Shown: positions 36,128 to 60,796, numbered from the stretch's first letter. The stretch is 64,000 bases of DNA from an uncultured Clostridia bacterium (GCA_900019385.1 FIZJ01000016.1:139380-203379), one strand, 5' to 3'. Translations and numbers: made by a program. The notes: generated from the sequence alone by a model not told the origin.

Positions 36128-37114
36128 CTAGGCCACCGGCATTTTGAAGCCCATTGCCTCCCGCACTTCCTCCATTGTCGCCTGGGCAAGCTTCCGGGCC
36201 TGCTTGGCGCCGGCATCGAGAATTTCCATCAATTCTGCTTGCTTGGCCAATAGATCAAATGTCCGCTCCCTGATTGGTGCCAGAGCCCTGACGATAGCTT
36301 CGCCGAGTTCATACTTTAAATCGGCGTAGCGGAGAGTCTGATTGGCATAGTCTGCCCGGAATCGCTCAACCAGCGCTGGTTCGGCGAAGGCTTCCAGGAG
36401 TGTGAAAAGGTTCTTCACACCCGGCCCCATCTCTCCGCCCTGCGGGCCCACATCCGTCACTGCGCGGCGGATTTTCTTGCGGATCGTGTCATCATCGTCG
36501 TCCATGGCAATATAACTGCCTTCGATACTCTTTGACATTTTGCTGGTGGGATCGTTCAAAGCCATGATCCGGGCAGTTTTGGTCAAAATCGGCTGCGGCT
36601 CTGGAAACACCTCCCCAAACATGGAGTTGAACCGCCTCGCGATTTCTCTGGTCAGCTCCAAATGCTGGATCTGGTCTTCCCCAACCGGTACAACTTCCGC
36701 TTTATAGATCAAAATATCTGAGGCCATCAAAACCGGATAATTCATCAACCCGGCAAAAACAGCTCCCTTATGCCGTTCCGCTTTTTCCTTGAACTGAGTC
36801 ATCCGCTCCAATGCGCCGATAGATGTGATACATGTGAACAGCCAGGTCAGTTCTGTGTGTTCCGGTACCGATGACTGGACGAACAAAACAGACTTCTCCG
36901 GATCGATTCCTGACGCTATCAAAGTGGCAGCCAGCTCCAAAACACGCTTGTGAAGCAGCTCTGGCTCATACTCAACTGTAATGGCGTGGTAATCCACGAT
37001 ACAGAACAAGCTTTCATACTTGTGCTGCAGTTCCACCCAGTTTTTGATCGCCCCCAGGTAATTGCCGATATGGATGTTTCCCGTTGGTTGAATCCCTGAA
37101 AAGACTCTCTGCAT
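36128..37114 (-). CDS. trpS: Tryptophanyl-tRNA synthetase
   Basis: Class I synthetase that charges tRNA-Trp. The N-terminal QRVFSGIQPTGNIHIGNYLG contains the HIGH-like HIGN; the second signature is NDPTSKMSKSIEGSYI (KMSKS). Also typical are ILIYKAEVVPVGEDQIQHLE and the tail with RERTFDLL. The start is at ATG 37114 (328 residues), the normal TrpS length, with GAGGAGGAAGG upstream. The longer frame to 37270 runs through the T-box leader and is not translated. Expression should respond to uncharged tRNA-Trp through the T-box at 37148-37417. rsm22 is downstream in the same unit. Confidence 0.97.
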   Translation of the reverse strand: MQRVFSGIQPTGNIHIGNYLGAIKNWVELQHKYESLFCIVDYHAITVEYEPELLHKRVLELAATLIASGIDPEKSVLFVQSSVPEHTELTWLFTCITSIGALERMTQFKEKAERHKGAVFAGLMNYPVLMASDILIYKAEVVPVGEDQIQHLELTREIARRFNSMFGEVFPEPQPILTKTARIMALNDPTSKMSKSIEGSYIAMDDDDDTIRKKIRRAVTDVGPQGGEMGPGVKNLFTLLEAFAEPALVERFRADYANQTLRYADLKYELGEAIVRALAPIRERTFDLLAKQAELMEILDAGAKQARKLAQATMEEVREAMGFKMPVA

Positions 37115-37147
37115 TGTTCCTTCCTCCTCATGCTGATCTAACGCCAT

Positions 37148-37178
37148 AAAAAAGATCCCGCCCCAAAGGGACGAGATC
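37148..37178 (-). terminator. Intrinsic terminator of the trpS T-box
   Basis: An 11-bp stem (37168-37178 with 37054-side partner 37154-37164, including G-U pairs) with a 3-nt loop, followed on the minus strand by TTTTTT (37148-37153). It competes with the T-box antiterminator. Confidence 0.9.
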
Positions 37179-37417
37179 ATCACTCGCGGTGCCACCCTAG
37201 TTAACTTATCCGAGATAAGTTCCCTCTTCGCCCGGTAACGGAGGCTTCCGGACCAGCCTACTTGCTGCATCAGGCAGGTTTCGGTGGACAGCTCCCGGGC
37301 CCATTCCCCAACTCCGCCTTACCGGTTTGCACCGCCCACCGGCTCTCTTAAAAGACTGGAATCAGGTACTCGCCCCTATCATCGCCATTTCGGATCTAGC
37401 GTTCCATTGCACTGCAC
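37148..37417 (-). ncRNA. T-box leader, tryptophan-specific
   Basis: The minus strand between csoR and trpS folds as a T-box riboswitch. The T-box itself is AGGGTGGCACCGCG (37185-37198). Stem I has the GCGAGTA bulge, the distal AGAGAG...GGTGGGCGGTGCAAACCGG features, and a specifier loop GAATGGGCCC with the codon TGG (Trp) at 37301-37303. The bulge UGGC pairs with the GCCA end of tRNA-Trp. It is followed by the terminator at 37148-37178. Uncharged tRNA-Trp should stabilise the antiterminator and turn on trpS and rsm22. Confidence 0.95.
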
Positions 37418-40195: not shown

Positions 40196-41740
40196 GTGCG
40201 GAAACAATCCTTGCTTCAAGGCGCATTTGTCCTTACAGCCGCCGGGTTTGTGACCAAAATCCTTGGTTTCGCCACCACCATTTTGCAGTCACGTATCCTC
40301 GGAGCGGAAGCGATCGGGCTGCAGATGATGGTGATGCCATATGCAGGATTGCTGATGACTGTCACCACCCTCGGCATGCCTGTCGCTGTTTCCAAAGTGG
40401 TGGCGGAGGCGGAGGCTTCAGGAGACAGGCAGAAAATCAGAAGAATCCTGTTTGTTTCCCTTGCCGTCACTTTGGCGGCGGCATCGGCCTTGACGTTTGG
40501 CCTTGCTTACTTCGGCCAAGCTATCGCCGCCAGGTTCCTCGCCGACCAGCGGGCTTACTATTCACTGATGGCACTGATCCCTATGATTCCGATCCTTGCC
40601 GTCTCAGGCATCGTCCGCGGATACTTCCAAGGGCGCCAGAATATGAATCCCCTCGCCATTTCCCAAGTGATTGAACAGATCATCCGCATCGCTCTGCTTT
40701 ATATTCTTGTTCAGCTTCTGGCAGCCCGGGGGTTGGAATACGCCGCGGCCGGCGCTGTCTTGGCCGGCGCCGCGGGCGAGCTGGCAAGTCTGATATATCT
40801 ATTATTCTCCTTCCGCCCCACTTCCATCTACCGGATCGTCAAAAACAGGTATCACCGTTCGTCTCAGTCGAGAATAGAACTGCTGGAACTTGCCAAGATC
40901 GGCATTTCCCAAACCGGCAACCAGTTCTTCCGCTCACTGCTCCGGGCTGTACAGCCAACAGTAATCAGCCGCAGCCTGCTTTCAGCCGGCCTTGACCCCT
41001 CGGCCGTAGCCGCGCAGTATGGAATGCTGACAGGTTATGTCTATCCACTTCTGTTCTTCCCCGGCTTTGTCAATTACTCGCTTGCCGTGGCACTGGTACC
41101 CGCCATCAGCGAAGCGGGAGCCAAACACCAGTACCGGTTGGTGACCCGGCGTGTCTCTCAGGCAATCCGGGCTTCTCTGTTGATCGGCATTCCCAGCAGC
41201 ATGATCCTGTTTGTCTTTGCCGAGCAGATCCTTGCCTTTTTTTACCGGGCGCCGGAAGCGGCTGGATTGCTCCGGCTCACAGCCCCGTTTTACCTGTTTC
41301 AGTATTTCCACTCACCCCTTCAGTCATCTCTTATCGGGCTCGGCCATGCGGCACTGGCGATGGTTAACAACGTGATCCCCCGCTGTATCAGCCTGGCGCT
41401 GATCTATCCTCTCAGTGTACAGTTGAACTTGGGAATCGCAGGTGTGGCTGTCGCTTCCAGCCTGGCGGTGGTTTTAGAGACGATCCTGCAGTACCTTGCT
41501 CTTCACCGGTACGCCGGGCCTTGCCTTCGCATTTCCGATGTTGCGAAAATGGCCGGCTGCGGCATTCCTGCCTCGCTCTTCGGTTATATTACCTATGACA
41601 CACTCCGCTTGTACCAGGTTGGCGAATCAGTATCCGCTTTAGGAGGAATCGCAGCTCTTCTCTTTTTGTACTTTTCCCTCATTTTTCTCACCAAGACAGT
41701 GCGGTTAAGTTCGATCATGGTGGCTTTGAAACGGCGGTAA
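40196..41740 (+). CDS. SpoVB/MurJ-like polysaccharide or lipid II flippase (MATE-like)
   Basis: Multi-helix membrane protein of about 514 residues in the MVF/MATE-like flippase group with around 14 helices. The N-terminus KQSLLQGAFVLTAAGFVTKILGF is the typical SpoVB lead, followed by GLQMMVMPYAGLLMTVTTLGMPVAVSKVVAEAEA and MIPILAVSGIVRGYFQGRQNMNPLAISQV, highly characteristic of stage V sporulation protein B and relatives. The start is GTG 40196, preceded by GGAAGTGAG; the upstream frame has no membrane sequence. Several paralogues usually occur per genome, acting in cortex or vegetative wall synthesis, so the sporulation role is not certain. It is divergent from copA and ends in a large hairpin. 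Confidence 0.9.
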   Translation: MRKQSLLQGAFVLTAAGFVTKILGFATTILQSRILGAEAIGLQMMVMPYAGLLMTVTTLGMPVAVSKVVAEAEASGDRQKIRRILFVSLAVTLAAASALTFGLAYFGQAIAARFLADQRAYYSLMALIPMIPILAVSGIVRGYFQGRQNMNPLAISQVIEQIIRIALLYILVQLLAARGLEYAAAGAVLAGAAGELASLIYLLFSFRPTSIYRIVKNRYHRSSQSRIELLELAKIGISQTGNQFFRSLLRAVQPTVISRSLLSAGLDPSAVAAQYGMLTGYVYPLLFFPGFVNYSLAVALVPAISEAGAKHQYRLVTRRVSQAIRASLLIGIPSSMILFVFAEQILAFFYRAPEAAGLLRLTAPFYLFQYFHSPLQSSLIGLGHAALAMVNNVIPRCISLALIYPLSVQLNLGIAGVAVASSLAVVLETILQYLALHRYAGPCLRISDVAKMAGCGIPASLFGYITYDTLRLYQVGESVSALGGIAALLFLYFSLIFLTKTVRLSSIMVALKRR

Positions 41741-41776
41741 AAAAAGCTTCACCGGCAGTCTATGCCGGTGAAGCTT
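41739..41776 (-). terminator. Terminator at the end of the ABC importer operon
   Basis: Perfect 14-bp stem (41744-41757 with 41763-41776, loop GTCTA). On the minus strand it is followed by TTTTT, ending the solute-binding protein operon. It starts 3 bp after the flippase stop and probably also stops plus-strand transcription, although its plus-strand tail is poor in T. Confidence 0.88.
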
Positions 41777-41802
41777 CTGCAAAAGTTGGTCATTACCCAG
41801 GT

Positions 41803-43116
41803 TTACTTGTTGAATAATGCGTCGATCTGCGATTGAGCTACAGGGGCTTTTGCCTCAAGATGGGTGCGCGGCACGACATCACCCCTGAACAGCGGCGCGA
41901 GGTCTTGACTCCAGCTTACAGACACTTCAGGGCTGTCCAAGCCATTCACCCATTCCACGTCGCCCTGCCAGTTCTGCAGAGCATACAGCAGGTGGTCAGC
42001 CGATTCGCGGTTCGGATAACGGGATGCGATGGTGGATGCCAGCCAGCTGTCGAAATCCAAGTCCTCTTTCTGGAAGAGGAAATCATGTACCGCAACCAAC
42101 CATTCAGGGTTGACAGCAGTGACCGGTATGGCCGCGAACTTGACCGCCCATTCCGGATAGACATAGTGATCGGTATGAGGACCCATTGGAATCGGAGCAT
42201 AGACGATAATATCACCATTATTGGCTGCGCCGCCGTTTTCCGCATGGTCAGAACCAAACTGCATAGCCACTGTGCCGTGCTGAATTCTGTTGGCACCGTC
42301 GAGGTCGGAAGGTACGATGTAACCCTCGCGGTACCACTCGGCAATCTTGTCGAAGACCCAAATCGCTTCTTCGTCAGCCCAGCCGTAGCGGTATCTGCCG
42401 TCGGGCTCGATCTTGATGAAGCGGGCGTTGTTCATGTAGATGGCATAGTCGATCCGGCGCCAGGCAAAGCCCCATTGGTCGATTTCGCCATCGCCGTTGG
42501 TGTCTCTTGTAACATTTATGGCGATTTGTTCAGCATCTTCCCAAGTCCAGACTCCGTTTTTCCACAGATCATAAATATCCGGCTGGCCTTCCCGCTCCAG
42601 CATACTCTTGTTGTAAACCATGGCAGTCGGCCGCCAGTTGTTGCCGTAGTGATGGCCAAAAGAGTAAATATTGTCCCTGATGGCCAGGATCTGTGTGTGT
42701 ATCAGATTGTCTGTCGGGTAGAGGTAATCGAAGTATTCTGGCGGCAGAATTTCATTCAAGGGTACCAGCATGCCGAAAGCTGCCATAGTGAAATACTCGT
42801 CACGCCAGTCTCTGTGAATGATGTCGTGTGTGGCTTCGCCAGTCATGATTCTAGCCATGGAGACGTCGACACTAGGCCTGTACAGGAACTCAAACCCACC
42901 GATGTTGAACAGCTCCATTGCCTCCTGCAGCCGACCTGCTTTGGCTGTGTCGTCGCCGAAGTGGTTTGCGTCGACACCGCCGACAATGGTGATCACAGCA
43001 CCGCCGAAATCAATCTTGTCCGGGCTCACCACACCCGGGCTGGGCACATAGTCTTGAGCCACTGCTGTTCCAACCAGCATCAATGCCAAGGCAACCGATA
43101 ACAACAGCTTTTTCAT
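41803..43116 (-). CDS. Sugar ABC transporter extracellular solute-binding protein
   Basis: Family 1 solute-binding protein of about 437 residues. A signal peptide (KKLLLSVALALMLVGTAVAQD) has AxA-type cleavage and no lipobox cysteine, so anchoring is unclear in a single-membrane cell. The body has family features such as FNIGGFEFLYRP, WTWEDAEQIAINVTRDTNGDGEIDQWGFAW and a late KEDLDFDSWLAS. The Trp/Glu/Asp-rich middle (NGDGEIDQWGF) is typical of binding proteins for plant oligosaccharides. The start is ATG 43116 with GAGGAGGT. Last gene of the five-gene operon; an 84-nt gap with a GC-rich stretch before it could allow a higher message level. Ligand unknown. Confidence 0.9.
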   Translation of the reverse strand: MKKLLLSVALALMLVGTAVAQDYVPSPGVVSPDKIDFGGAVITIVGGVDANHFGDDTAKAGRLQEAMELFNIGGFEFLYRPSVDVSMARIMTGEATHDIIHRDWRDEYFTMAAFGMLVPLNEILPPEYFDYLYPTDNLIHTQILAIRDNIYSFGHHYGNNWRPTAMVYNKSMLEREGQPDIYDLWKNGVWTWEDAEQIAINVTRDTNGDGEIDQWGFAWRRIDYAIYMNNARFIKIEPDGRYRYGWADEEAIWVFDKIAEWYREGYIVPSDLDGANRIQHGTVAMQFGSDHAENGGAANNGDIIVYAPIPMGPHTDHYVYPEWAVKFAAIPVTAVNPEWLVAVHDFLFQKEDLDFDSWLASTIASRYPNRESADHLLYALQNWQGDVEWVNGLDSPEVSVSWSQDLAPLFRGDVVPRTHLEAKAPVAQSQIDALFNK

Positions 43117-43200
43117 AATGAACCTCCTCTTATGTATTGGGAAACTGTTAGGATAAAGCCGCCGATTTGTTGAGACTCCCACCCCCCCCGGCTTGGCACA

Positions 43201-44130
43201 TTATTGTCCTGTGATACCTGTGCGCTGCACGCTTTCCACGAAGAAACGCTGCAGGAATACATAGAGAATGACCAGCGGCGCAATCAACAGCAAACTGCCG
43301 GTATTGTTCAAAAGCGATGTTTCCGGCAGTGACGCCTCCCAGCGCATGCCCAGGACACTGTTGGGCAGCTTGTCAAGCATCATCGGCAAGGTGGTCGCGC
43401 TGCTGTAGAACATCTGAGTCATATAATAGTCGTTCCACTGCCAAACAAAGGCAAACAGAAACACTGTCACCATGGCCGGAACCGCAGCCGGCAGCATGAT
43501 TTTGGAAAAAGTCCGGAAGGCTCCCGCTCCGTCCACATAGGCGGCTTCCTCCAAATCTCTGGGCATCCCTTTGAAGTACTGCCGCATGATGTAAATGAAC
43601 AAACCGTTGCGGGGGCCAGTGCAGGTAGCCGCCGTAATCACTGCCGGCCAAACCGTGTTGATGAAATTCAGCTGCACAGGCAAGAGCCCGAGAAAGTCAA
43701 AATAGCGGAAATTTAAGTACAGCGGTATGATAAACAGCTCCGGCGGCACCACCAGTGTGATGATCGCCAAAGTGAACAGGACCTTGGCACCTTTGAAGTG
43801 AAACCGTGCGATCCCGTAGCCCACGAGTGTGCTGGAAGCAAGCTGGAGAGCACTGACAAGGACTGCCAGTTTCACCGAATTCCAGAAGGCAGTAGGGTAA
43901 TTCATGTAATTCCAGGCCAGTTCATAGTTGCGCAGAGTCGGATGACGGGGAATCCACGCCACTGTCGTATCCCACAGATCGCTGCGGGACATGAAGGAAG
44001 ATGCGAGCTTGCTGAGAACCGGAAAGATCACGATATAGCAGACCCCGATCAGAATCACCGCCCGGGCCAGCGACCATCCATATCTGAACAAGCTGCGCTT
44101 CCAGTGCAATCTGTGCTCCATCACACCCAT
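43201..44130 (-). CDS. Carbohydrate ABC transporter permease (MalG-type)
   Basis: Inner-membrane permease with six helices, 309 residues. Helix 1 is SLARAVILIGVCYIVIFPVLSKLASSFM (trimmed). The cytoplasmic ATPase-contact EAA loop is present as YFKGMPRDLEEAAYVDGAGAFRTFSKIMLPAAVPA, which is the CUT1 permease signature. It pairs with the upstream MalF-type permease 22 bp away and the downstream solute-binding protein. No ATPase gene is in the operon, a common CUT1 arrangement where a shared MsmX-like ATPase energises several importers. Start is ATG with a GGGAGGG site. Confidence 0.93.
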   Translation of the reverse strand: MGVMEHRLHWKRSLFRYGWSLARAVILIGVCYIVIFPVLSKLASSFMSRSDLWDTTVAWIPRHPTLRNYELAWNYMNYPTAFWNSVKLAVLVSALQLASSTLVGYGIARFHFKGAKVLFTLAIITLVVPPELFIIPLYLNFRYFDFLGLLPVQLNFINTVWPAVITAATCTGPRNGLFIYIMRQYFKGMPRDLEEAAYVDGAGAFRTFSKIMLPAAVPAMVTVFLFAFVWQWNDYYMTQMFYSSATTLPMMLDKLPNSVLGMRWEASLPETSLLNNTGSLLLIAPLVILYVFLQRFFVESVQRTGITGQ

Positions 44131-44152
44131 ACCTAATCCCTCCCTTGCCCCC

Positions 44153-45070
44153 TCACTCGTGGTAGAATACCAATCGGGAAAAAATCACGAACGTGATCAC
44201 CAGGATCCCTCCAATCACACCGAAGTACACCCAGGACATCGCCGAACCAATACCGTATCCCAGTGTCCCGAACGCCGCCGCCCGGATGTTGCTCACGATT
44301 AGATTGGATGTGGATGTGAAATAGTCGACGATTGTGTAGACGATGTTGGTCAGGATCAACGGGCTGACCATGGGCAGTGTGATTAACCAGAAGTTTTCCC
44401 AACCAGTGGCCCCTTCCACTTCCGACGCTTCATACAATGATCTGGGAATGGCCTGTAAACCTGCCAGCAGGACCAGGATCTGGATTCCTGAACTCCTGAT
44501 GATATTGGGCAGCGACTCGATGGCCGCCAGAATATTGGTGATCAAGGCATCCGGCAGCTGAAACTTGGAAAGATAAACACTCAACGCCGGCGTGACCAGA
44601 AATGCGGAAACCGACTCCATACCATATTCCAGTATTCCGGTCATATAGTCCCTGGCCTCGATTTTCAGGATGATTCCCGATGCCATGACAATTGGGAGGA
44701 ACAAAACCGCCCGGGCGATCAGCCTCCCCCGGAAATTCTGGTTGAGAATTATGGCCGCGAAGAAACTGAAGACCAGAATCCAAAACGCCTGCGACAGCAT
44801 GTTTATGGTTGTTTCGGTCAAGTCTCTGATGAAAGTGGGATGGACGCGAAAGACATGGCGGTAGTTTTCCAGTCCCACATACTTCAGTTCATACCCGGTC
44901 TTGGTGATTACCAGTTCATTGAAGCTGAAGACAGCCGAGAGAATCGTGGGATAGAGAAACACAAACAGAAATCCCAAAATGAAAGGGAGTGAAAACAAGT
45001 ATCCAGCCAGAGTGTTCTGCTGGCGCAAAGTCAGAGAAAACAACCGCCGCTTCGGCTTGCGCATCTTCAT
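44153..45070 (-). CDS. Carbohydrate ABC transporter permease (MalF-type)
   Basis: Six-helix CUT1 permease of 305 residues with a basic N-terminus (KMRKPKRRLFSL) then LAGYLFSLPFILGFLFVFLYP. The EAA loop appears as LQAIPRSLYEASEVEGATGWENFWLITLPMVSPLILT, matching the family consensus. Its ATG overlaps the DUF5696 stop by one base (TAATG), so it is translationally coupled to that gene. It works with the MalG-type permease and the binding protein downstream. A basic 89-residue frame over its 3' end is a shadow. Confidence 0.93.
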   Translation of the reverse strand: MKMRKPKRRLFSLTLRQQNTLAGYLFSLPFILGFLFVFLYPTILSAVFSFNELVITKTGYELKYVGLENYRHVFRVHPTFIRDLTETTINMLSQAFWILVFSFFAAIILNQNFRGRLIARAVLFLPIVMASGIILKIEARDYMTGILEYGMESVSAFLVTPALSVYLSKFQLPDALITNILAAIESLPNIIRSSGIQILVLLAGLQAIPRSLYEASEVEGATGWENFWLITLPMVSPLILTNIVYTIVDYFTSTSNLIVSNIRAAAFGTLGYGIGSAMSWVYFGVIGGILVITFVIFSRLVFYHE

Positions 45071-47841
45071 TACTCTCCCCCTGTCACGAGATAACCTTTG
45101 GCATCAATGATGAGATCCCCAACCTGGACCGGTTCCGTGTTGTAATTAACGATAATCTTCGTCCCATCTTCATAGGTGGTTTCAAACACCCTGTCCGCCA
45201 ACTGCCTGTGGCCGATCAGTGTCTGCCCCTGCAGCGGCGCGAGTACGTTGTTCAGTTCTTTATAGTAGGCAGCGGCCACATCGATCCAAGACCGGTAGTT
45301 GATCGACAGCAAGTACTGGAACGGTGTGTCTTTTAACAGTGACGAGTCTTCATATGACCATATGAAATACGGACTGGCACCGATCTCCAATGCCTTCAGC
45401 AGAGCGTCCCGATAATCGACTGCGTAGTTCAGCGCTGCGCCGGCATAATTTACATACCCCCGAACAACCAGTTGGTAGAACGGCACTTCCTGATCGCAGA
45501 TGACAAAGCCGCTGGAACCGAGAGGCATGTTCAGAATGTGATCCGCATGGACCAATGCGTACACGTTGGGACTGTTCATCATCAAAGAAAGATTCCGGCT
45601 CAGTTTCTCGATCTGGGCGATGGTAATCTGTTTGGCTTGTTCCCGATCGATCAGCAAGTGTTCTTTTTCCTGGAAATCGGAATTGAGAGCAGCGCCCAAA
45701 TCACGCAGCGACAGCGCCCCAATCTGATATTTTTCATAGTCCTTGAGAAAACCATCGACCTGCGCTGCTAGACTGCCGGGCGACACCACCCACGCATTTG
45801 TTCCGGTTGTGAGCTGCCTCTGCACATAGTACTTATTCAGCGAATAGGCCGCGTCGCTGTGGACGCTGAACCCATCTCCCAGCCGATCTCTGGCCGCCAA
45901 GGTCTGGGTTATGTCAGGATAGAGAGCGACGCCCTTGCTGTTCAGCGACGCGATGAGATCCAGCAAGCCGGCTTTGCCTCCCAACGCCTTCTCCACCTGT
46001 ACCCGATTGGGATAGATGTGTTCCACCCCGCCGGACAACCACCCGGTGTAGCGCAGTTTGATGTTTTGCACACCAAGGTTTATGAGCTCATCGAGAATAG
46101 CCTCTGCCTGCGCGAAGGTCGTCATAGGTCTGACCACTTCCCGGGGAATGCCAAGAATCGGCTGTTGGAGATGAACTGCGCCAATCAGCTCAAGATACAG
46201 TGGAATGCCCGGTTCCGGATCGACCCTTTTCCATCCATGGCGCCCGATCAAATACTGCTGGTAAAGGCGGGCCATGCCTACATAATCCGCGTCTTCCCCT
46301 TCCAAAAACATGTAGCGGACTTGGAGATCAGAACTGACCAAGCGCTGCTGGTATGTGTTGATGTTGGCGCCGCCGCCACCCCTCGAGCTGACGGCAAGCT
46401 GCACCGCACCCACGGGCATCACATTGAAGCGGGCATAAACCGTATCGACTGGATTCACTCGCCCGGCTGTTTTCACCACAATGCTGGCAACGGCGTCCCC
46501 CTCCTCGATGACAGCCAGAAACGCCCCATCGCCACACTTCATGCCGAACACCGGCAGCTGCTGAGGCTGGAAATGGCGGCGCAGCTCCATTTCAGACTGA
46601 ATATCCGTCGCAGTGCTCAAGTTTGACAGGTTTTCGCCGTAAAGCCTGTGCTGAAGGGTGAGATCTTCAGTCTGACGCACCCGATCCGCAGACAGGTTGA
46701 TCAAGGCTCCAGACCCGTCCGGTATGAGGATGTATCCTGATTCAGCCTGGCTGGGAGCCCCAAAATAAGGCAGTAGGTTGATGGCATGGAGCGGAAAAGT
46801 CACTAAGCCGCCTCCGCCGATACCGCCGAAGGCATTCATCAGCAGTTCGTCCTGAATGACCGTCCAGTGGACGCCCCGCAAGCCCCAAACATCGCTGGTG
46901 TACACATCCTTAGGGTACTTCACTTCTTCCATGGGAACCCTGGCCACCAGGCTGGCCCCTTCCAACCGGTACTCGACTGGAATTGTGAAATTCTCTACTT
47001 TTCGTTCCGGCGGTTCCAAGCCATATTCTGCATTGTCCACTTGTTTGTCGTAAGGGGTGTAGCCGGCAGCCTTGAGAATCTTCGCCATATCTTCCAGATC
47101 CCACGGCAGAAGGTTTGGCTTACGCACGTATGTGGGATTGTCGATGAAGTACACCACCATCTCCGGCTTGAGCTGGGACAACGATCCGGCGTCATTGCGC
47201 CACGCCACAATCGAGTTCAAGACATGGCGGATGAAATCGCCTTTCTGCCGGCCGGCAAGATTGGTTTCTGTCATAATCGTGTAAGGCCCGAACAAAGCGT
47301 CCTTGTCCAGATTGCTGACAGCGACGCGCTGATAACCCTCGGGAATTCTTTCCAATGAGAAACGGACGAAGTTACTCCGGACAAAGTTCCGCTCCTTCTC
47401 ATTCTCGATTTTGGAAAGAATTAGTTCATTGAAGCGCTCTTCAGAGATAAATACCGGCAGGTAATCCTCAGTGGTCCACTCTTCGCCCAGGACATACACA
47501 ATCTTGACACCGTTCTCCAGTGGTGTAATATCGAACTGGCCGTAAGCGACACTGTCAGCCCGGTTGTTCATCGTCCGCGCATCATCACGGGGTGTAAAGT
47601 ATTCAATCAGGAACTGCTCCTGTGCCTTGGTGTTGTTGGGATTGCTGTACCATACCCGGCCGCTCGCCCGGTTGGCCACAGCGATCTCAGTGGTGCTCTC
47701 GTTCAGATATAACTGCAGGTATTCGTTTTCCGCCACCACGACATACCCATTGGGCAGTTCCTGTCCATAAGCCGCCAACTCTGCATCCAAGCACAACAAG
47801 GAGAACAGGATCAGCAATAACCATAGAGAAAGCCGCCGCAC
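45070..47841 (-). CDS. Secreted DUF5696 family protein
   Basis: Large exported protein of about 923 residues. Signal peptide RRLSLWLLLILFSLLCLDAELAA. The body matches the DUF5696 family found with sugar ABC transporters: early repeats of beta type (YLQLYLNESTTEIAVANRASGRVWYSN), and a later half with the look of a TIM-barrel glycosidase-like fold (NIKLRYTGWLSGGVEHIYP, ALYPDITQTLAARDRLGDGFSV, GASPYFIWSYEDSSLL). I cannot name catalytic acids with certainty. GTG 47841 is chosen as start since GGAGGG lies 6 nt upstream; the frame from 47868 overlaps the YIP1 stop. Coupled to the downstream permease. A role in trimming or sensing an extracellular glycan before import is inference. Confidence 0.78.
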   Translation of the reverse strand: MRRLSLWLLLILFSLLCLDAELAAYGQELPNGYVVVAENEYLQLYLNESTTEIAVANRASGRVWYSNPNNTKAQEQFLIEYFTPRDDARTMNNRADSVAYGQFDITPLENGVKIVYVLGEEWTTEDYLPVFISEERFNELILSKIENEKERNFVRSNFVRFSLERIPEGYQRVAVSNLDKDALFGPYTIMTETNLAGRQKGDFIRHVLNSIVAWRNDAGSLSQLKPEMVVYFIDNPTYVRKPNLLPWDLEDMAKILKAAGYTPYDKQVDNAEYGLEPPERKVENFTIPVEYRLEGASLVARVPMEEVKYPKDVYTSDVWGLRGVHWTVIQDELLMNAFGGIGGGGLVTFPLHAINLLPYFGAPSQAESGYILIPDGSGALINLSADRVRQTEDLTLQHRLYGENLSNLSTATDIQSEMELRRHFQPQQLPVFGMKCGDGAFLAVIEEGDAVASIVVKTAGRVNPVDTVYARFNVMPVGAVQLAVSSRGGGGANINTYQQRLVSSDLQVRYMFLEGEDADYVGMARLYQQYLIGRHGWKRVDPEPGIPLYLELIGAVHLQQPILGIPREVVRPMTTFAQAEAILDELINLGVQNIKLRYTGWLSGGVEHIYPNRVQVEKALGGKAGLLDLIASLNSKGVALYPDITQTLAARDRLGDGFSVHSDAAYSLNKYYVQRQLTTGTNAWVVSPGSLAAQVDGFLKDYEKYQIGALSLRDLGAALNSDFQEKEHLLIDREQAKQITIAQIEKLSRNLSLMMNSPNVYALVHADHILNMPLGSSGFVICDQEVPFYQLVVRGYVNYAGAALNYAVDYRDALLKALEIGASPYFIWSYEDSSLLKDTPFQYLLSINYRSWIDVAAAYYKELNNVLAPLQGQTLIGHRQLADRVFETTYEDGTKIIVNYNTEPVQVGDLIIDAKGYLVTGGE

Positions 47842-47869
47842 GCCATTCCCTCCCATTCCTGCCGGCACA

Positions 47870-50062
47870 CTATAATCGGTATCTAAGCTCAGAATAGATC
47901 GTCAGAACAAAGCGAGTGATATGGTCAACAACACTGGTGAACAAGAGAGCCACAAACAGCGCCGCCGCAATCCCACCTACGATCAGCACCGCTGTCACCA
48001 GAGTTTTTAGCACGCTGTATTCATGCAGTGTCATAGTCCCTGCCAAAAGCAGCAGCAGCGCCCAGATCACCGAGACAACCCGCGCCAGAATCAGCAAGCT
48101 CCCTTCGCTTTGGACCAGCATATGGCTGACAATAGTCGCTGGAATGTTCACTATTATGATCGGAGTAAGGGCGTACGCTGACATGATGTAGATCTCTTTC
48201 ACAGTGCCTTTGCCTTCCATCAAAGTTGTGAAAGCCCAGTTGACCCCCACCCACAGCAGGAACGGCACCAGCACACTTATGGCGTCAGCGAAGAGATTGA
48301 CTTCGGATACCTTCAGTGTGTTGAATGGAAACGCAGTGTACTGCCGGATGATCACATAAGTGAGGACCTCCAATGCCAGCAAAATGTTGGCGGCTGCAAG
48401 TGTGCCCCTTCGCTCATGTTTCAGATCCCAGAAACCGTCAAAAGGATGAAAGATCACATGCAGCGAGTACAGCAAGCTGTCGGCCAATTTGCGGACGGCA
48501 TACTCCCGTTTTTTCCTCGTCGGCACGGCATGAGGCGGTACAGTCTCCAGCATGGCACTCATTTCTGCCAATACTTTGGGATTGTCGGCAAAGCCCGACC
48601 ATTTGCCGATCCGTTCGCCAATTCTCAGTTTGGGCCCGGCGAACAGCAGCACAAACACAGCAAAGACACCCAGCATGATTCCGGCGATATGATCATTGAC
48701 AAACTGCTGACGCAGGTATAAAAAAACTTGGGAATAGCCAGCCCGGTCTTGTCCCAACCGGAAATAAGCCAGGGCAGTGTCATAATCCCGCTCCAACGCT
48801 GCGGTGGCGGCAATCCAATTGTAGGCGATCTCAAATCCGGGATTCTGATCCAGGACCAGCCGCCATTTCTCCGCCGCTTCTTTATAAAAACCGCGGTCGT
48901 AATAGGACAGAGCTTCGTGAATTGCCTGGGCGTAAGCTGTCGGCTCAAACAAGGTCAACCCCCGGCTGTCCAGCACAACCAGGTGTCCATTGAGCTCTCC
49001 CAAGGCTGCCGGATTGCGGAACCGTCCCAGCACATCACCGATTCCGCCAAAGACATACAGCAGGTTTCCGCTGTGGTCATATGTGAACACCCGGCCTCGT
49101 GTAGCGTCGAGGACGCTGAACATGCCGAAATCTCTACCGAGCACGTCCACAAACGCTGAATCGGCGATGAAGTCATTCCCGGAAACTGTGATATCGCCGA
49201 TGATCGGCAGCCGGCTTGAGCGCCGCATGATATCCGAACCCATCGGATTAAGCAGCTTCACAATTTCATGGTTCTTATTGACGGCTGTTTCCCGGAGCAC
49301 GGCATAGAGCATTCCGTCGGCGCTCAGTCCGATGTTTGCATACTCTATGGGCAGCAAAAGCTGAAACTGGGCCCGCTGCTCCTCTGTGGCGAGCCACATC
49401 CAAAAGAGATCCGCCGCTGAAACCTTCACCCGCGGAGCACCGATGAACCCCACGAAGGAGCCGTCTTGGTCAAACTGGAAAATTCCTTCGTAGACATTGG
49501 CCGCCAACACGTAGATACGGCCAAGCGGATCGACTTCCACCTTGAGGGGGCGGTAGATATAGTCTTCTTTGATCAATGCCTTCGCCGATGAGCTTGGTTC
49601 CGCAACAATCCGGATCAGGTTTCCGTCTGGATCCAACACCACAAGCCTGCCGTTGTCCGTATCGGCAATGTACAGGTGGTTGCTTTCTGTCACTGTGATG
49701 CCGCTGGGGTTGCGTAACGAATCGATGCTGGCTCCGTTGTCAAACGTCTTGATCTCACGCTCAAACTCAAGATCCGGCGACAGGCGGATCACCCGGTTGT
49801 TGCCTGAGTCGGCGATATAGACCCTAAGATCAGGGCCGATAGCCAAATCTTGCGGCCGCCGCAGCGGGCCGACACCGAGGGATTGTCCGTCCACCAGTTT
49901 CAATGGGATATAGGCTTGAGGCGCCGGGACTCTCTCGCCCCAGAAATTGAACAGATAGCTGTCATAAGGGGCCGCCGCCAGCACAAGGTTCGCCGCTGCG
50001 AACACAAGTGCCGCAAGCACTATAGTGGTTTTTAGAGCTTTGCTTCCGTCCACACGCCACAC
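47870..50062 (-). CDS. NHL-repeat / TPR / YIP1 membrane protein
   Basis: Multidomain protein of 730 residues. A signal or anchor helix (about 8-29, TTIVLAALVFAAANLVLAAAPYD) is followed by NHL-type beta-propeller repeats (about 55-345: RPQDLAIGPDLRVYIADSGNNRVIRL, NPSGITVTESNHLYIADTDNGRLVVLD, trimmed), a TPR pair (about 385-450: ALSYYDRGFYKEAAEKWRLVLDQNP), one helix (about 465-485), and a C-terminal YIP1 domain with five helices (about 540-730, LYSLHVIFHPFDGFWDLKHERRG). The propeller should face outside. First gene of the DUF5696-ABC importer operon, ending 2 bp from the next possible start. Its role is not known; it may organise or sense glycans at the importer. Confidence 0.82.
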   Translation of the reverse strand: MWRVDGSKALKTTIVLAALVFAAANLVLAAAPYDSYLFNFWGERVPAPQAYIPLKLVDGQSLGVGPLRRPQDLAIGPDLRVYIADSGNNRVIRLSPDLEFEREIKTFDNGASIDSLRNPSGITVTESNHLYIADTDNGRLVVLDPDGNLIRIVAEPSSSAKALIKEDYIYRPLKVEVDPLGRIYVLAANVYEGIFQFDQDGSFVGFIGAPRVKVSAADLFWMWLATEEQRAQFQLLLPIEYANIGLSADGMLYAVLRETAVNKNHEIVKLLNPMGSDIMRRSSRLPIIGDITVSGNDFIADSAFVDVLGRDFGMFSVLDATRGRVFTYDHSGNLLYVFGGIGDVLGRFRNPAALGELNGHLVVLDSRGLTLFEPTAYAQAIHEALSYYDRGFYKEAAEKWRLVLDQNPGFEIAYNWIAATAALERDYDTALAYFRLGQDRAGYSQVFLYLRQQFVNDHIAGIMLGVFAVFVLLFAGPKLRIGERIGKWSGFADNPKVLAEMSAMLETVPPHAVPTRKKREYAVRKLADSLLYSLHVIFHPFDGFWDLKHERRGTLAAANILLALEVLTYVIIRQYTAFPFNTLKVSEVNLFADAISVLVPFLLWVGVNWAFTTLMEGKGTVKEIYIMSAYALTPIIIVNIPATIVSHMLVQSEGSLLILARVVSVIWALLLLLAGTMTLHEYSVLKTLVTAVLIVGGIAAALFVALLFTSVVDHITRFVLTIYSELRYRL

Positions 50063-50131
50063 CTCAACTTCGCGACATTGTTAAAATAACATCAATTTGT
50101 ATAAGTTCTGATTAAATATGTATAGGTTATT

Positions 50132-50143
50132 GAAATTATACCA
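50132..50143 (-). promoter_or_regulatory. Extended -10 promoter of the YIP1-DUF5696-ABC operon
   Basis: TGG TATAAT on the minus strand (TATAAT at 50135-50140), about 73 bp before the YIP1-gene ATG. No clear -35 box at normal spacing. Confidence 0.5.
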
Positions 50144-50238: not shown

Positions 50239-50266
50239 AAAAAAAACGAGCCCCTTATCGAGGCTC
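50239..50266 (-). terminator. Terminator of the zupT-like / AI-2E / relQ unit
   Basis: A 7-bp stem GAGCCTC...GGGGCTC (one G-U pair, 5-nt loop) at 50248-50266 on the minus strand, followed by eight T residues (50239-50246). Confidence 0.8.
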
Positions 50267-54354: not shown

Positions 54355-56223
54355 CTAGACCGTAAGCTTTCTGGTGTAATTGGCAACTATCTTCTCGTCC
54401 TGGAGAGTGAATGCCACCTGCGACATTTCATAAGGCACTGGATATGTATAGATGCCAAACTGAAGATTCACATTGGAATGGATCAAGTCGGCCTTGACCG
54501 TGCCGTCAGCCGCTACCCTGACGTGAGTGATCGTGCCTCCGGGGCAGCCGAGCACATGGGAGGCGATTCCCGTTTGAGCATTCAACGATCCGCCGCGGCA
54601 TTCCCCTTGGATCCAGATGGAGTCTCCCGCTGTGAGCTTCGAATTGTACACCAATTCGCCCGTGGCTGTGATCTTGCCTGTCGCTTCAATCTCACTGTTC
54701 TGACAGTAATCGATTTCCACATCCACCTCGCTGGTGAGTTCAGCTTTTATCTCTTCCTGCAGCTCGAGGCATTCATCATAGAGTTCCTCGATGCATCTGA
54801 ATGAATCCAGTTTACAGTCCAGGTTCGCGATCCTGTGGAGAATCGGGTTGCCCAGGTCGATCAAGCTGCCTTTAAGCTGTTCCAGTGTTTTGAGATTCTT
54901 GTCCAAAGTAGCGAACTTCATTTCCAGAAGCAGCCTGATCAAGTACTCTTCGCCCCATGCCGCCGATTTTGTCTTTTCGAAATAAGGTTCCAGCTGTCTG
55001 CCTGCCTGGATCAACTCGGGCAGCTGAATAATTAGGCGCCCCAGGATCGAACCGATTTGGACCAGCCTGGTTTGGTCGGATCCGGCTATGATCTTGCTGC
55101 CGATCACCTTGCCGTGGACGGCTATATTGCCGTTGGCCACGATCTCGGCTTGATAGACATCTCCAACAACCACCACCCGGCCGCCGGCATGCACCTTCAG
55201 GCTTTCGTTGACATTGCCTCTAACCAGGACATCACCATAGAATTCAATATGGCCTGTGGTCAGATCAACATCCCCATTGATTTCCAGAAGTGGGATCACG
55301 CTCAAGCGCAGATCAGGCCCGCTTAGGCATGGACGGCCGTCAATGGTTGCCACGGCGATCCGCCCGTTGTCGATGAGCTGGACACCAGGGCCAACTTTGA
55401 GCACTTTGTTTTTTGGATCTCTTGGCTCGATTACTTCGCCGAACACCGACAGCCCGGGTTCGCCAAGCACAGGCGGCGTCCAGAACGCCAGGACGGTTCC
55501 TGCCTGGACACAGTTGATTGCTCCTTTGTTGTAATAATCGATCCGCTCGCTGTCGTCATTTTCCACCGGCAGCCGTTCGTCAAAACTGCAGACGTATTCC
55601 ACTTTGCCGTCTTGCGAAGGGCTGGGCGCCTTCCCTCTGGCAATGACAACGTCTTGATCTGCACAGCCTTGGCATGCCGCCTGGATCACCTTCCGCATAA
55701 TAGGCGCCTTGATGCCCAGACGCTTAAGTTCAGCGTGCACCAAACCCTCGTCAATAGGTTCAGGCGGGATCTCGCCGGCAGCCTGCCCGTCAATCCTCAA
55801 ACGCTGTGCCGGCAGGCAGTCAGGCGCCCGGTAAATTTTGCCCGGCACAAAACGCACTGACAGCACGACTTCCGTCCGGTCCTCGGAAACATGAACCTTG
55901 AACCTACTGACCGGTGCCTTTTGGGCAGGTACAACCTGCAGCAGATTCCCGTCGAAAACCACAGTCGGTTGGGTGACAAGCTGATTGTCATAATATACTG
56001 AAACATTTCGGCCTGGTATGATCACAGGCCATTTACCTTTCCCAGCCGGCTTCGTGTGGCTGATCACACCGCCGCTGACTGCGATCGTGCCGTCTCTGTC
56101 CAGATCCGGCTCTGCCCCGCCTTCGCCTGCCTGCATCGGCAAGTGCTCGTCCGCACAGGATTCTGCGCCACCCCGGCGCTGAGTGAGACGGACAACATTG
56201 CTCACTCTTTTCATTTCAACCAT
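54355..56223 (-). CDS. FapA family protein (DUF342, polymer-forming-type beta-helix)
   Basis: About 622 residues. The N-terminal quarter includes KPAGKGKWPVIIPGRNVSVYYDNQ; the DUF342 core (about 195-470) has the glycine/valine ladder typical of a right-handed beta-helix (VLVRGNVNESLKVHAGGRVVVVGDVYQAEIVANGNIAVHGKVIGSKI, in part), then a coiled coil (about 415-515, LIRLLLEMKFATLDKNLKTLEQL) and a second ladder (ATGKITATGELVYNSKLTAGD). FapA proteins are linked to flagellar assembly and to membrane or polymer scaffolds; direct activity unknown. The start is ATG 56223, 8 nt after GAGGAG. Upstream stands a c-di-GMP-I riboswitch, which makes motility or surface-structure control plausible. Confidence 0.86.
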   Translation of the reverse strand: MVEMKRVSNVVRLTQRRGGAESCADEHLPMQAGEGGAEPDLDRDGTIAVSGGVISHTKPAGKGKWPVIIPGRNVSVYYDNQLVTQPTVVFDGNLLQVVPAQKAPVSRFKVHVSEDRTEVVLSVRFVPGKIYRAPDCLPAQRLRIDGQAAGEIPPEPIDEGLVHAELKRLGIKAPIMRKVIQAACQGCADQDVVIARGKAPSPSQDGKVEYVCSFDERLPVENDDSERIDYYNKGAINCVQAGTVLAFWTPPVLGEPGLSVFGEVIEPRDPKNKVLKVGPGVQLIDNGRIAVATIDGRPCLSGPDLRLSVIPLLEINGDVDLTTGHIEFYGDVLVRGNVNESLKVHAGGRVVVVGDVYQAEIVANGNIAVHGKVIGSKIIAGSDQTRLVQIGSILGRLIIQLPELIQAGRQLEPYFEKTKSAAWGEEYLIRLLLEMKFATLDKNLKTLEQLKGSLIDLGNPILHRIANLDCKLDSFRCIEELYDECLELQEEIKAELTSEVDVEIDYCQNSEIEATGKITATGELVYNSKLTAGDSIWIQGECRGGSLNAQTGIASHVLGCPGGTITHVRVAADGTVKADLIHSNVNLQFGIYTYPVPYEMSQVAFTLQDEKIVANYTRKLTV

Positions 56224-56244
56224 CAAATACACTCCTCTTAGCAG

Positions 56245-56280: not shown

Positions 56281-56360
56281 TTCCGGCAGCTGGCTGGCCA
56301 CCAATTCTGATGGCCCCTATAGCTTTGCGTCCTTAGATTACTCTAAGTTTGCCCACGGAG
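56281..56360 (-). ncRNA. Cyclic-di-GMP-I (GEMM-I) riboswitch
   Basis: Minus-strand aptamer upstream of fapA. It has the conserved GGGCAAAC (56347-56354), a P2-type stem CTTAGA/TCTAAG closed by the GNRA tetraloop GTAA (56338-56341), the invariant GACGCAAAGC (56322-56331), and a second hairpin with GGCCATC...GGTGGCC and AGCCAGCTGCC, the tetraloop-receptor and 3' pairing arm. All match the class I consensus. The hairpin at 56245-56274 follows as the probable switch element. Direction of control (on or off) is not certain. Confidence 0.93.
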
Positions 56361-56369
56361 ACCACAAGA

Positions 56370-57914: not shown

Positions 57915-59387
57915 TTATTCCTGGTCAAGCTCAGCCAGCCTTGACGCCAATTCCGCCTTGGCTTGATCCACCTTTTCCTTGGCGATTACAAACTCGGTCA
58001 CACCTTCAATACGCGCAGCATAGAGATCTCGGCTGTACGGCAGCAATTCGACAGTAAAGGGTGTTGTTTCCGGATTATTGTGGTAATAGACAATCGTCAT
58101 CACTGGCTCGCCTGATAAAGGCTCCCCTTCAATCAGCGCGTCCACAGTCAAACCGATGATTGTGCCGTAGAGTCTCCGGAACGATCTCTCCTCGGCTGCC
58201 ATCCCGTTGATGTAGAACGTCTCCTTGAGCTCAGCCTTGGGTTCACCATCTGCATCCTCCGGTTCCACTACCACTTGTTCCCTTTTCATGTCCAGTTGAT
58301 AATGCTGATCATCCCAGAATATTTCTACGCGGCGGATGTCATCGATGCTCGCCATATACAAAAACTTGTTCACCCAATCAAAGGGGTTGGCATTGCGGAT
58401 GCGGATTAGGTTTTTGTAGATTGTAAAGACCGCATGGCCGTCTTTGAGCATGGCATAGACTTCAGTCTCGTTGCGATCAGCTCCCAGCAGCAGGTGGACC
58501 GAGTCGCGGCTGTCGGCGACCGCCAGTTCTCCCCGGGGCTGATCCAATCCGTATTGATTGAGGTCTACTGGATCAAGGTCGACAAATTCCCTCACCCGCA
58601 GTGTCAGAACCGGGCTGCCGTCCAAAGTAAAGTCAGGATAGTTCTCCAGGTGGGCTACCCTGTACGGCGTCTTATAGGGGCTTACGAACCGCAGGCGGTC
58701 CATGCCGAGCATGCTTGGTGACCGGGATTCGCCGGTGACAATCTCAATTGGCGCCTGCCCCGCGTTGCGGATCAAAAGATACTGCAGATCGATCAGATCA
58801 ATCGCCGCCAACTCACGGATGAGGAAATCTTCAACCTTGGATTGGAAGGCGACACCGTACATGCCATTGACGGCATAGACCGCCTCGTCGCCATCGATCT
58901 GGGCATAAAACAGATACTCTGTCGGGTGGCGGTTTCCCAGGTAAACCACTTTCTCGCTTCCATCTCCCAATTTGGCCCGGGCCGTTGTGCCGGGCTTGTC
59001 CAGCCCATACTTTGTCAAATCACTGGGTTTTTCCTCAAGTTTATGGCTCGCCTCCAAAGTGGCAAACCGCCGGACAACCGTCTGCACCTGTGCTTGGTCG
59101 AGAAGCGCCGGATCAACATCGTTCACCAGCCACTGGCCGTCGGCATTGGTGATTTCAATCTGGCCGGGGCCGATCAAAGTCAGCTGAGCAATGTCGTTTT
59201 CCGTCAAATCCCAAAACCGGCCTATCTGCTCAACCAATGCAGGGGTCTCCGGCTCTGTCGCTGGCTGCTTAACGAATATCCCCACAAGAATATTTATATT
59301 GAACAAACCGTTGACGCTCCCATACACGAACAGCAGCAGCGCCAGGCACAGCGTCAAAACGATCAACCACTGGAGCCGCTTTCTCAC
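57915..59387 (-). CDS. DUF4340 domain membrane protein
   Basis: Extracytoplasmic protein of 490 residues with an N-terminal membrane anchor (LQWLIVLTLCLALLLFVYGSV). The body has repeated DUF4340-type segments: IGRFWDLTENDIAQLTLIG, LDKPGTTARAKLGDGSEKVVYLGNRH, DLNQYGLDQPRGELAVADSRDSVHLLLG. DUF4340 proteins typically sit at the end of Gld-like ABC exporter operons and are thought to be accessory to the transporter. The start overlaps the GldG stop by 4 bp (ATGA), so expression is coupled. Substrate unknown. Confidence 0.88.
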   Translation of the reverse strand: MRKRLQWLIVLTLCLALLLFVYGSVNGLFNINILVGIFVKQPATEPETPALVEQIGRFWDLTENDIAQLTLIGPGQIEITNADGQWLVNDVDPALLDQAQVQTVVRRFATLEASHKLEEKPSDLTKYGLDKPGTTARAKLGDGSEKVVYLGNRHPTEYLFYAQIDGDEAVYAVNGMYGVAFQSKVEDFLIRELAAIDLIDLQYLLIRNAGQAPIEIVTGESRSPSMLGMDRLRFVSPYKTPYRVAHLENYPDFTLDGSPVLTLRVREFVDLDPVDLNQYGLDQPRGELAVADSRDSVHLLLGADRNETEVYAMLKDGHAVFTIYKNLIRIRNANPFDWVNKFLYMASIDDIRRVEIFWDDQHYQLDMKREQVVVEPEDADGEPKAELKETFYINGMAAEERSFRRLYGTIIGLTVDALIEGEPLSGEPVMTIVYYHNNPETTPFTVELLPYSRDLYAARIEGVTEFVIAKEKVDQAKAELASRLAELDQE

Positions 59388-60796
59388 AAGCTACGCCTCC
59401 TCTTCCAAACAATAAACCCGGTTAAAAACACCAACAACGGCAAAGCAACCACGAACACGCCCGCTAAAATCAGCTGCTGCATATACGTGATGGACAAATA
59501 GGTGTCTTTGAACGGTTTCGGCCGGACCGTGATGTTTTGCTTGGCCTCGTTGAGCCAGTTGAAGCTGTTGATAATAAAGTCTGTGTTGGCACCGCGGCTC
59601 AGCTGATCGAACTGATCAACCAGCACCCCCGATGTGGAGATGACAACCAGCTTAGCCGGTGTCGGGCCGTACTCATCCCCGTCTGTGACGGACACAGCCA
59701 CATTGAACGGGCCAACGGGATCTCCTTCGCTCCAGTTGTAAGTCAAGTCTTCAAAGTTGGATTTTGCCCAGGAATTGTCGCTGGAAGTCAGAAGCGGTTC
59801 GATCCTAAGGCTTGCTCTGCGGGCCTGCAGGATAGTGACAGGCTGAGCGACCGGCATCACCATCAGATGGCGCGCAGCCACCAGCGGTTCAGTAAGGGCA
59901 TGATCCTTATACTTGGGAATGAGCCAGAAAGGATTGTTGGTGACCCTTGACGCATTATCGCCTTCGATCACAAACTGTTTCTCGACCCTGAGCCCATAGC
60001 TGGCAAGCAGCCCGTCCAGATAAGGGCGCTCCTCCAGTGTATAATCCAAGATAATGATCATCCTGCCGCCGTTTTTCAGGTAATCCCTGAGTTTCTGATC
60101 CTCTACTTCAGTCAAATCCTTCTCAGGCGCCAGCAGCAGCACCATGGCGGCGTCATCAGGGACAGCATCCACAGTCAACAGATCCAGATCCTCAATTCTG
60201 TAGTTCTCCTTCTTGGCCAAATCGACAAAACTCGAGCTCAGTTCCACCTCATTGTGCCCCACAAGGCGGTAGACCACCGGCACTTGATCCGTGGTAACAT
60301 ATGCGATGGCACTGGTGATCTGCTGCTCAATGGCAATCGATTCAGGCAGCATTTGATAGTAATAATAAGCATAGTTCACGAAATCATTCGGCTGCAGCAC
60401 CATAAACCGCTCGCCGCTGGCAACGATCACACTGCCCAGATCAGGAGTGACTTCTCCTCCCTTGTACTGTTCCACAAACTGAGGGTTCAGCAGTGGATCC
60501 ACAATCTCAAAACTAACTCGGTCTGATGCATTCACATATTGGTTGATTACTTCCGACACAGTCTGATTCTGTCTACCGGTGCGGTACAAAGCATATATAG
60601 TGACATCCCGGTCCAGCTGTTTCAGAAGCTGCTGCGACTGGGTTGACAGCGAAAAAAGCTTGTTGGCGGTCAAATCGAGCCGGAAATCAAAAGAGCCGAC
60701 AACCAGATTAAGCACAACCAGGACCGCTACCACCAAAGCGACAAGCAGTGCAGCGCTGCCGCCGTATCTTACCAATCGAAATCGGCTATCATTCAT
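59384..60796 (-). CDS. GldG-family ABC transporter accessory protein
   Basis: Membrane-anchored protein of 470 residues. N-terminal helix LLVALVVAVLVVLNLVVGSFDFRLDLTANKLFSLS is the classic lead of the GldG/IFT52-like family, followed by DVTIYALYRTG and VSFEIVDPLLNPQ. A middle DUF4350-like region (LDLLTVDAVPDDAAMVLLLAPEKDLTEVEDQKLRDYLKNGGRMIIILD) sits outside, and a second helix (ILAGVFVVALPLLVFLTGFIVW) with basic tail RRRSL ends the protein. It works with the ABC-2 permease and ATPase encoded upstream. In gliding bacteria the analogue supports motility; in Bacillota the cargo is unknown. Confidence 0.88.
   Translation of the reverse strand: MNDSRFRLVRYGGSAALLVALVVAVLVVLNLVVGSFDFRLDLTANKLFSLSTQSQQLLKQLDRDVTIYALYRTGRQNQTVSEVINQYVNASDRVSFEIVDPLLNPQFVEQYKGGEVTPDLGSVIVASGERFMVLQPNDFVNYAYYYYQMLPESIAIEQQITSAIAYVTTDQVPVVYRLVGHNEVELSSSFVDLAKKENYRIEDLDLLTVDAVPDDAAMVLLLAPEKDLTEVEDQKLRDYLKNGGRMIIILDYTLEERPYLDGLLASYGLRVEKQFVIEGDNASRVTNNPFWLIPKYKDHALTEPLVAARHLMVMPVAQPVTILQARRASLRIEPLLTSSDNSWAKSNFEDLTYNWSEGDPVGPFNVAVSVTDGDEYGPTPAKLVVISTSGVLVDQFDQLSRGANTDFIINSFNWLNEAKQNITVRPKPFKDTYLSITYMQQLILAGVFVVALPLLVFLTGFIVWKRRRSL

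Follow-up and report, generated by a model that had tools for sequence, protein, structure and literature searches.

In the DNA of an uncultured Clostridia bacterium (a stretch of 64,000 nucleotides, GCA_900019385.1 FIZJ01000016.1:139380-203379, called here the window), an operon of five genes encodes the solute-binding protein (SBP) and the two permeases of a CUT1 importer, preceded by an NHL-propeller/TPR/Yip1 membrane protein and a secreted DUF5696 protein. Its first four genes (Yip1, DUF5696, permease, permease) are a recurring core. The explanation that we favour, with a probability of about 0.5, is that of a CUT1 importer running on a shared ATPase and assisted by a mostly non-catalytic DUF5696 docking adaptor and a Yip1 anchor, the substrate being pectic in this case.

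ORF calling and family scans placed the five genes on the minus strand, at window positions 41803-50062 (Table 1), as tightly packed as in the original prediction. The first three were said to abut or overlap, and they do: one base separates the Yip1 gene from the DUF5696 gene, which overlaps the first permease gene by 1 nt. Further on, the permease genes are 22 nt apart, and 18 nt lie between permease 2 and SBP. The 923 residues first attributed to the DUF5696 protein correspond to an internal start. For the SBP, translation more likely begins at an ATG, residue 23 (MKKLLLSVALALMLVG), than at the GTG that opens the ORF. As a hairpin with a T-run lies 3′ of the upstream RelA/SpoT gene, the beginning of the operon can plausibly be put at about 50.06-50.14 kb. 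In this region, promoter-like matches were not above chance, nor were most terminator matches.

Table 1. Features of the operon and its upstream border, in window coordinates.
Feature	Position	Strand	Length	Remark	Basis
NHL-propeller/TPR/Yip1 membrane protein	47870..50062	-	730 aa		ORF, Pfam
Secreted DUF5696 protein	45070..47868	-	932 aa	from GTG	ORF, Pfam
CUT1 permease 1	44153..45070	-	305 aa	EAA loop EASEVEGATGWENFWLITLP	ORF, Pfam/NCBIfam
CUT1 permease 2	43201..44130	-	309 aa	EAA loop EEAAYVDGAGAFRTFSKIMLP	ORF, Pfam/NCBIfam
Extracellular solute-binding protein (SBP)	41803..43182	-	459 aa	from GTG	ORF, Pfam
Terminator-like hairpin and T-run	50248..50266	-		between the operon and the upstream RelA/SpoT gene	
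Asp723 codon, DUF5696 protein	45700..45702	-		aligned with NagBb nucleophile Asp435	
Asn765 codon, DUF5696 protein	45574..45576	-		aligned with acid/base NagBb Glu478, DagB Glu517	

In the Pfam scans, the first protein matched NHL (9.8e-18), TPR weakly, and Yip1 (PF04893) with 52.8 bits for a cut-off of 28.6. Judging from positive residues, which precede the initial hydrophobic stretch and follow that near residues 460-477, it probably has an N-terminal anchor and some five C-terminal Yip1 membrane helices, with the propeller and TPR outside. The second protein matched DUF5696 (PF18952) with 618.4 bits, the gathering cut-off being 25.6. BPD_transp_1 was detected in permease 2 (1.2e-17) and weakly in permease 1 (E 0.006), and EAA loops were read in the sequences of both. 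The SBP, which has a signal peptide, matched SBP_bac_8 at 8.8e-6, one bit under the Pfam cut-off. A PADLOC search for a defence role gave no match.

The operon contains no ATPase gene, a point that had been presented as remarkable. We do not retain it as an oddity. The genome encodes one MalK-type ATPase (OB_MalK match), on another contig, and sharing is established in Caldicellulosiruptor bescii, so that the absence from the operon is ordinary. The CUT1 systems of C. bescii have MsmK in common, and deletion of MsmK leads to poorer growth on xylan, pectin and cellulose (PMC8579813). The window operon resembles these MsmK/MsmX systems in having an SBP and two permeases without their own ATPase, for one MalK-type ATPase per genome, but differs from them by its constant Yip1 and DUF5696 companions.

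Searches with the DUF5696 model detected eight loci in the 2.17 Mb genome of the window. Of 60 related genomes, 43 had a match and 42 passed the cut-off; across the phylum, the figures were 32 and 25 out of 299 genomes. Genes were called in 60 further Bacillota loci, and the core was complete wherever the flank was available, leaving aside loci that ended at a contig end or at the edge of the fetched region. In a few cases a core gene seemed absent, which tblastn traced to errors of gene calling. Being recurrent in dozens of loci, the arrangement exceeds chance, and the original prediction, which was to fall if DUF5696 lacked any conserved acidic pocket and the gene order was not kept in relatives, stood on this second point. 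The co-occurrence count in other Bacillota that it had proposed was also carried out: strong Yip1 matches were found in exactly the 42 of 60 related genomes that bear DUF5696, and in none of the other 18, kinship between genomes being ignored in this count.

Variations around the core were observed. At one locus (L121), the Yip1 gene comes after the permeases, and in several lineages the NHL-repeat and Yip1 parts are two separate genes. Of the first 41 loci, 26 had a second unit before or after the core, made of a protein of about 985 aa and another permease pair; these large proteins (family f5; L066, L068, L069, L079-L102) end in an SBP domain, preceded by some 600 N-terminal residues without a confident family. 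Mirror-tree correlations were 0.49-0.62 for the core proteins, 0.27 for DUF5696-SBP and 0.59 for PERM1-SBP. Named examples of the locus lie on plasmids of Butyrivibrio fibrisolvens and Paenibacillus cellulosilyticus. No additional homologue was found in viral contigs, and our literature search found no paper naming DUF5696 or PF18952.

Two particular cases are reported here for themselves. On the P. cellulosilyticus plasmid (L141, 2320-25019), a UgpC ATPase belonging to the Yip1/DUF5696 importer is present together with four LLM-class flavin oxidoreductases, a content suggesting that the substrate is not a plain polysaccharide. At L067, L119 and L124, three tandem paralogous SBPs are placed behind one permease pair, and this suggests several specificities through one common channel.

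We then considered the enzymes encoded next to the core. In the window genome, core copies adjoin either GH29 and GH42, or GH10, GH43 and GH3, or GH28, or an arabinofuranosidase; in other genomes GH26, GH43 and GH3 were found. The glycan types concerned are diverse (xylan, mannan, fucoside, arabinan, pectin), and since adjoining enzymes differ between core copies, the Yip1/DUF5696 pair is tied to no single glycan. As to the window operon itself, downstream of its ortholog in genome G001 (permeases 80%, SBP 70% and DUF5696 71% identical) the same strand carries genes for a PcRGLX-like (rhamnogalacturonan lyase-like) protein, GH28, GH43, HEAT and HEAT-pectinesterase proteins, with an AraC regulator nearby. 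This is the nearest enzyme-bearing orthologous operon, and on this ground our best guess, to which we give about even odds, is that the window operon imports pectic (rhamnogalacturonan-type) oligosaccharides, an assignment drawn from one relative. No pectin gene adjoins the operon in the window or in L009/G003; a full-length PcRGLX-like protein is encoded elsewhere in the window genome. The view of the operon as a CUT1 glycan importer is kept, and its polysaccharide, previously left unassigned, receives a candidate from the enzymes of this orthologous operon.

A related layout was found in Caldicellulosiruptor. The xylan-induced operon of C. bescii (XDL) is written xloEFG-X-GH129-axoFGE-xynF... 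(PMC8579813), and the C. saccharolyticus locus Csac_2411-2419 has been linked to xylan transport (PMC5658599). The XDL layout, SBP-permease-permease-Yip1-DUF5696-permease-permease-SBP-GH43, is that of L094, L095 and L097, the latter ending in a XynF-like GH43-CBM-CBM6 protein of 1370 aa; from this layout we infer that L094-L097 are Caldicellulosiruptor. By the same match, X would correspond to the Yip1 protein and the gene labelled GH129 to DUF5696. The Yip1-DUF5696-permease-permease part has the order of the window, and both systems combine CUT1 permeases with a shared MsmK-type ATPase. However, the window operon has one permease pair only and no adjacent enzymes, and its DUF5696 protein counts 932 aa with an inserted domain, compared to 733-759 aa in Caldicellulosiruptor-type loci.

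A profile built from 38 DUF5696 proteins was compared by hmmsearch to the PDB sequences, and recovered DagB (5OPQ, a GH129-like anhydro-galactosidase, E 3e-12) and NagBb (5WZN, a GH129 alpha-N-acetylgalactosaminidase, 1.6e-8). The sequences of these two chains were obtained by bridging queries and then profile-aligned; with hhalign, the alignment with DUF5696 spans the whole of DagB (E 6.9e-13), and the E value for NagBb was 1.3e-10. The beta-sandwich, the TIM barrel and the Ig-like domain of the GH129 fold all aligned, which agrees with the TIM barrel guessed at the outset. Based on these profile alignments, the window protein is predicted to follow the domain plan of DagB, with an N-terminal beta-sandwich carrying an insertion of about 170 residues, a TIM barrel and a C-terminal Ig-like domain. 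In Pfam, DUF5696 alone matched, Glyco_hydro_129 giving no match in the window protein at E 0.01; a search for Glyco_hydro_129 in 199 genomes had no match, controls included. AlphaFold runs on the DUF5696 and Yip1 proteins, using two-sequence alignments, yielded pLDDT of 29 and 36, and these models were set aside.

In L058 and L059 (G066, G183), 664-aa frames gave a weak DUF5696 match over the barrel (E about 1e-5), and no confident PDB relative. They possibly represent an undescribed GH-like family.

We take D435 (nucleophile) and E478 (acid/base) to be the catalytic pair of NagBb. In every setting that aligns them, residue 765, an Asn in the window protein, is the counterpart of NagBb E478 and of DagB E517 alike. 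NagBb D435 maps to D723, while DagB D486 maps unstably between 723 and 734 (726, 731 or 734), leaving the nucleophile position uncertain (D435, D486 and E517 are named in PMC5698469). Counts over 81 near-full-length DUF5696 members gave an acidic residue at column 765 in 37 of them and Asp at column 723 in 46, as in the window protein. The inserted domain and this replaced, non-conserved acid/base Glu set the window protein apart from NagBb and DagB. Acids at both columns were present in 22 of the 81, with 11 changes of pattern on the tree. Column 765 is at the 76th percentile of barrel variability, among the less conserved, and column 723 at the 51st, close to the median. By comparison, W610, D731, R742, N768, P796, F797, G804, N814 and E828 belong to the most conserved 7% of barrel columns and are nearly invariant. 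These counts lend no support to a functional hydrolase in which the acid pair is conserved, as initially envisaged. From this alignment, the family appears to conserve a pocket-like residue set rather than the GH129 machinery. Given the ambiguous nucleophile column and the 93% conservation of D731, the family may have another active site, around D731, and a minority of members may be active, as the acid pair is kept in those 22.

The importer would work as follows. The SBP and two permeases would form a CUT1 oligosaccharide importer driven by the single shared MalK/MsmK-type ATPase of the genome. DUF5696 would descend from a GH129-like glycosidase and have lost cutting in most members, probably; having a signal peptide and no second membrane segment, it is expected outside the membrane, where it would most likely bind glycan ends. 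The NHL-TPR-Yip1 protein, with its propeller-TPR exposed, would anchor it, and the two together would hand oligosaccharides over to the SBP and permeases. The same four-gene core would be reused with other SBPs and enzymes for other plant polysaccharides.

Other explanations have to be weighed against this one. DUF5696 could be an active GH129-related exo- or endo-glycosidase, trimming oligosaccharides at the mouth of the importer via D731 (or D723) and a variable or different acid. Its full-length homology to enzymes that are active, DagB and NagBb, the GH129 annotation in the C. bescii XDL, the high conservation of D384, D413, D731 and E828, and the acid pairs kept at 723 and 765 all point in that direction. 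We nevertheless find this unlikely, as the acid/base column is not conserved, and xylan-locus members have no acid at either position (A and S in L002, S/T and T in the Caldicellulosiruptor-like L094/L097, according to the alignment). Moreover, DUF5696 is always present though the surrounding glycans differ, and such independence of the linkage is more readily expected of a helper than of a single hydrolase. Between the two, we favour reading DUF5696 as an adaptor for glycan docking that is mostly non-catalytic.

A helper might, on the other hand, have little or no contact with glycans, Yip1 and DUF5696 being mainly an assembly or regulatory module that places or gates the permeases, or signals the substrate. 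The pair always adjoins permeases, Yip1 with a propeller-TPR is an architecture typical of scaffolds, and the splitting of the Yip1 protein into two genes in some lineages is in keeping with it. The glycosidase fold is kept, however, and the conserved W610, D731 and N768 fall in predicted loops after barrel strands, which suggests ligand binding by DUF5696; we rate a purely structural or regulatory pair as quite improbable. Finally, given the shared ATPase, the three transporter genes alone make a complete CUT1 set, and Yip1 and DUF5696 might be neighbours of an ordinary importer by chance or selfish linkage. The recurrence of the core in 60 loci and the perfect co-occurrence in genomes (42 with both, 18 with neither) make this hardly credible.

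More tentatively, and with less than even confidence, the pair could be a general Bacillota glycan-docking device, in which a glycosidase turned non-catalytic receptor, held at the membrane by the propeller-TPR-Yip1 protein, serves many CUT1 importers with different polysaccharides; by analogy, it would do what SusD and surface glycan-binding proteins do. As in the SusC/SusD loci of Bacteroidota, an invariant uptake core is combined with variable enzymes, in many copies per genome; the likeness is functional alone and homology is not claimed, the system described here being an ABC importer without SusC or SusD. If the favoured explanation is right, current descriptions of many plant-polymer importers of Bacillota lack two of the components, and the GH129 annotation of a protein in a model biomass degrader probably labels it as an enzyme wrongly. 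The pair would offer a testable route to how ABC importers gather long oligosaccharides at the cell surface.

Some other features of the window were noted. On the minus strand at 57915-60796, a GldG-like ABC-associated protein (59384-60796) is encoded beside a 490-aa ORF without family. A T-box leader (130.6 bits, 37164-37391, minus strand) lies upstream of the gene at 36128-37270. A c-di-GMP-I riboswitch (60 bits, 56282-56363, minus strand) stands directly upstream of a FapA-family gene (54355-56232), which is followed by an Fe-S aldo/keto reductase and a ZupT-type transporter.
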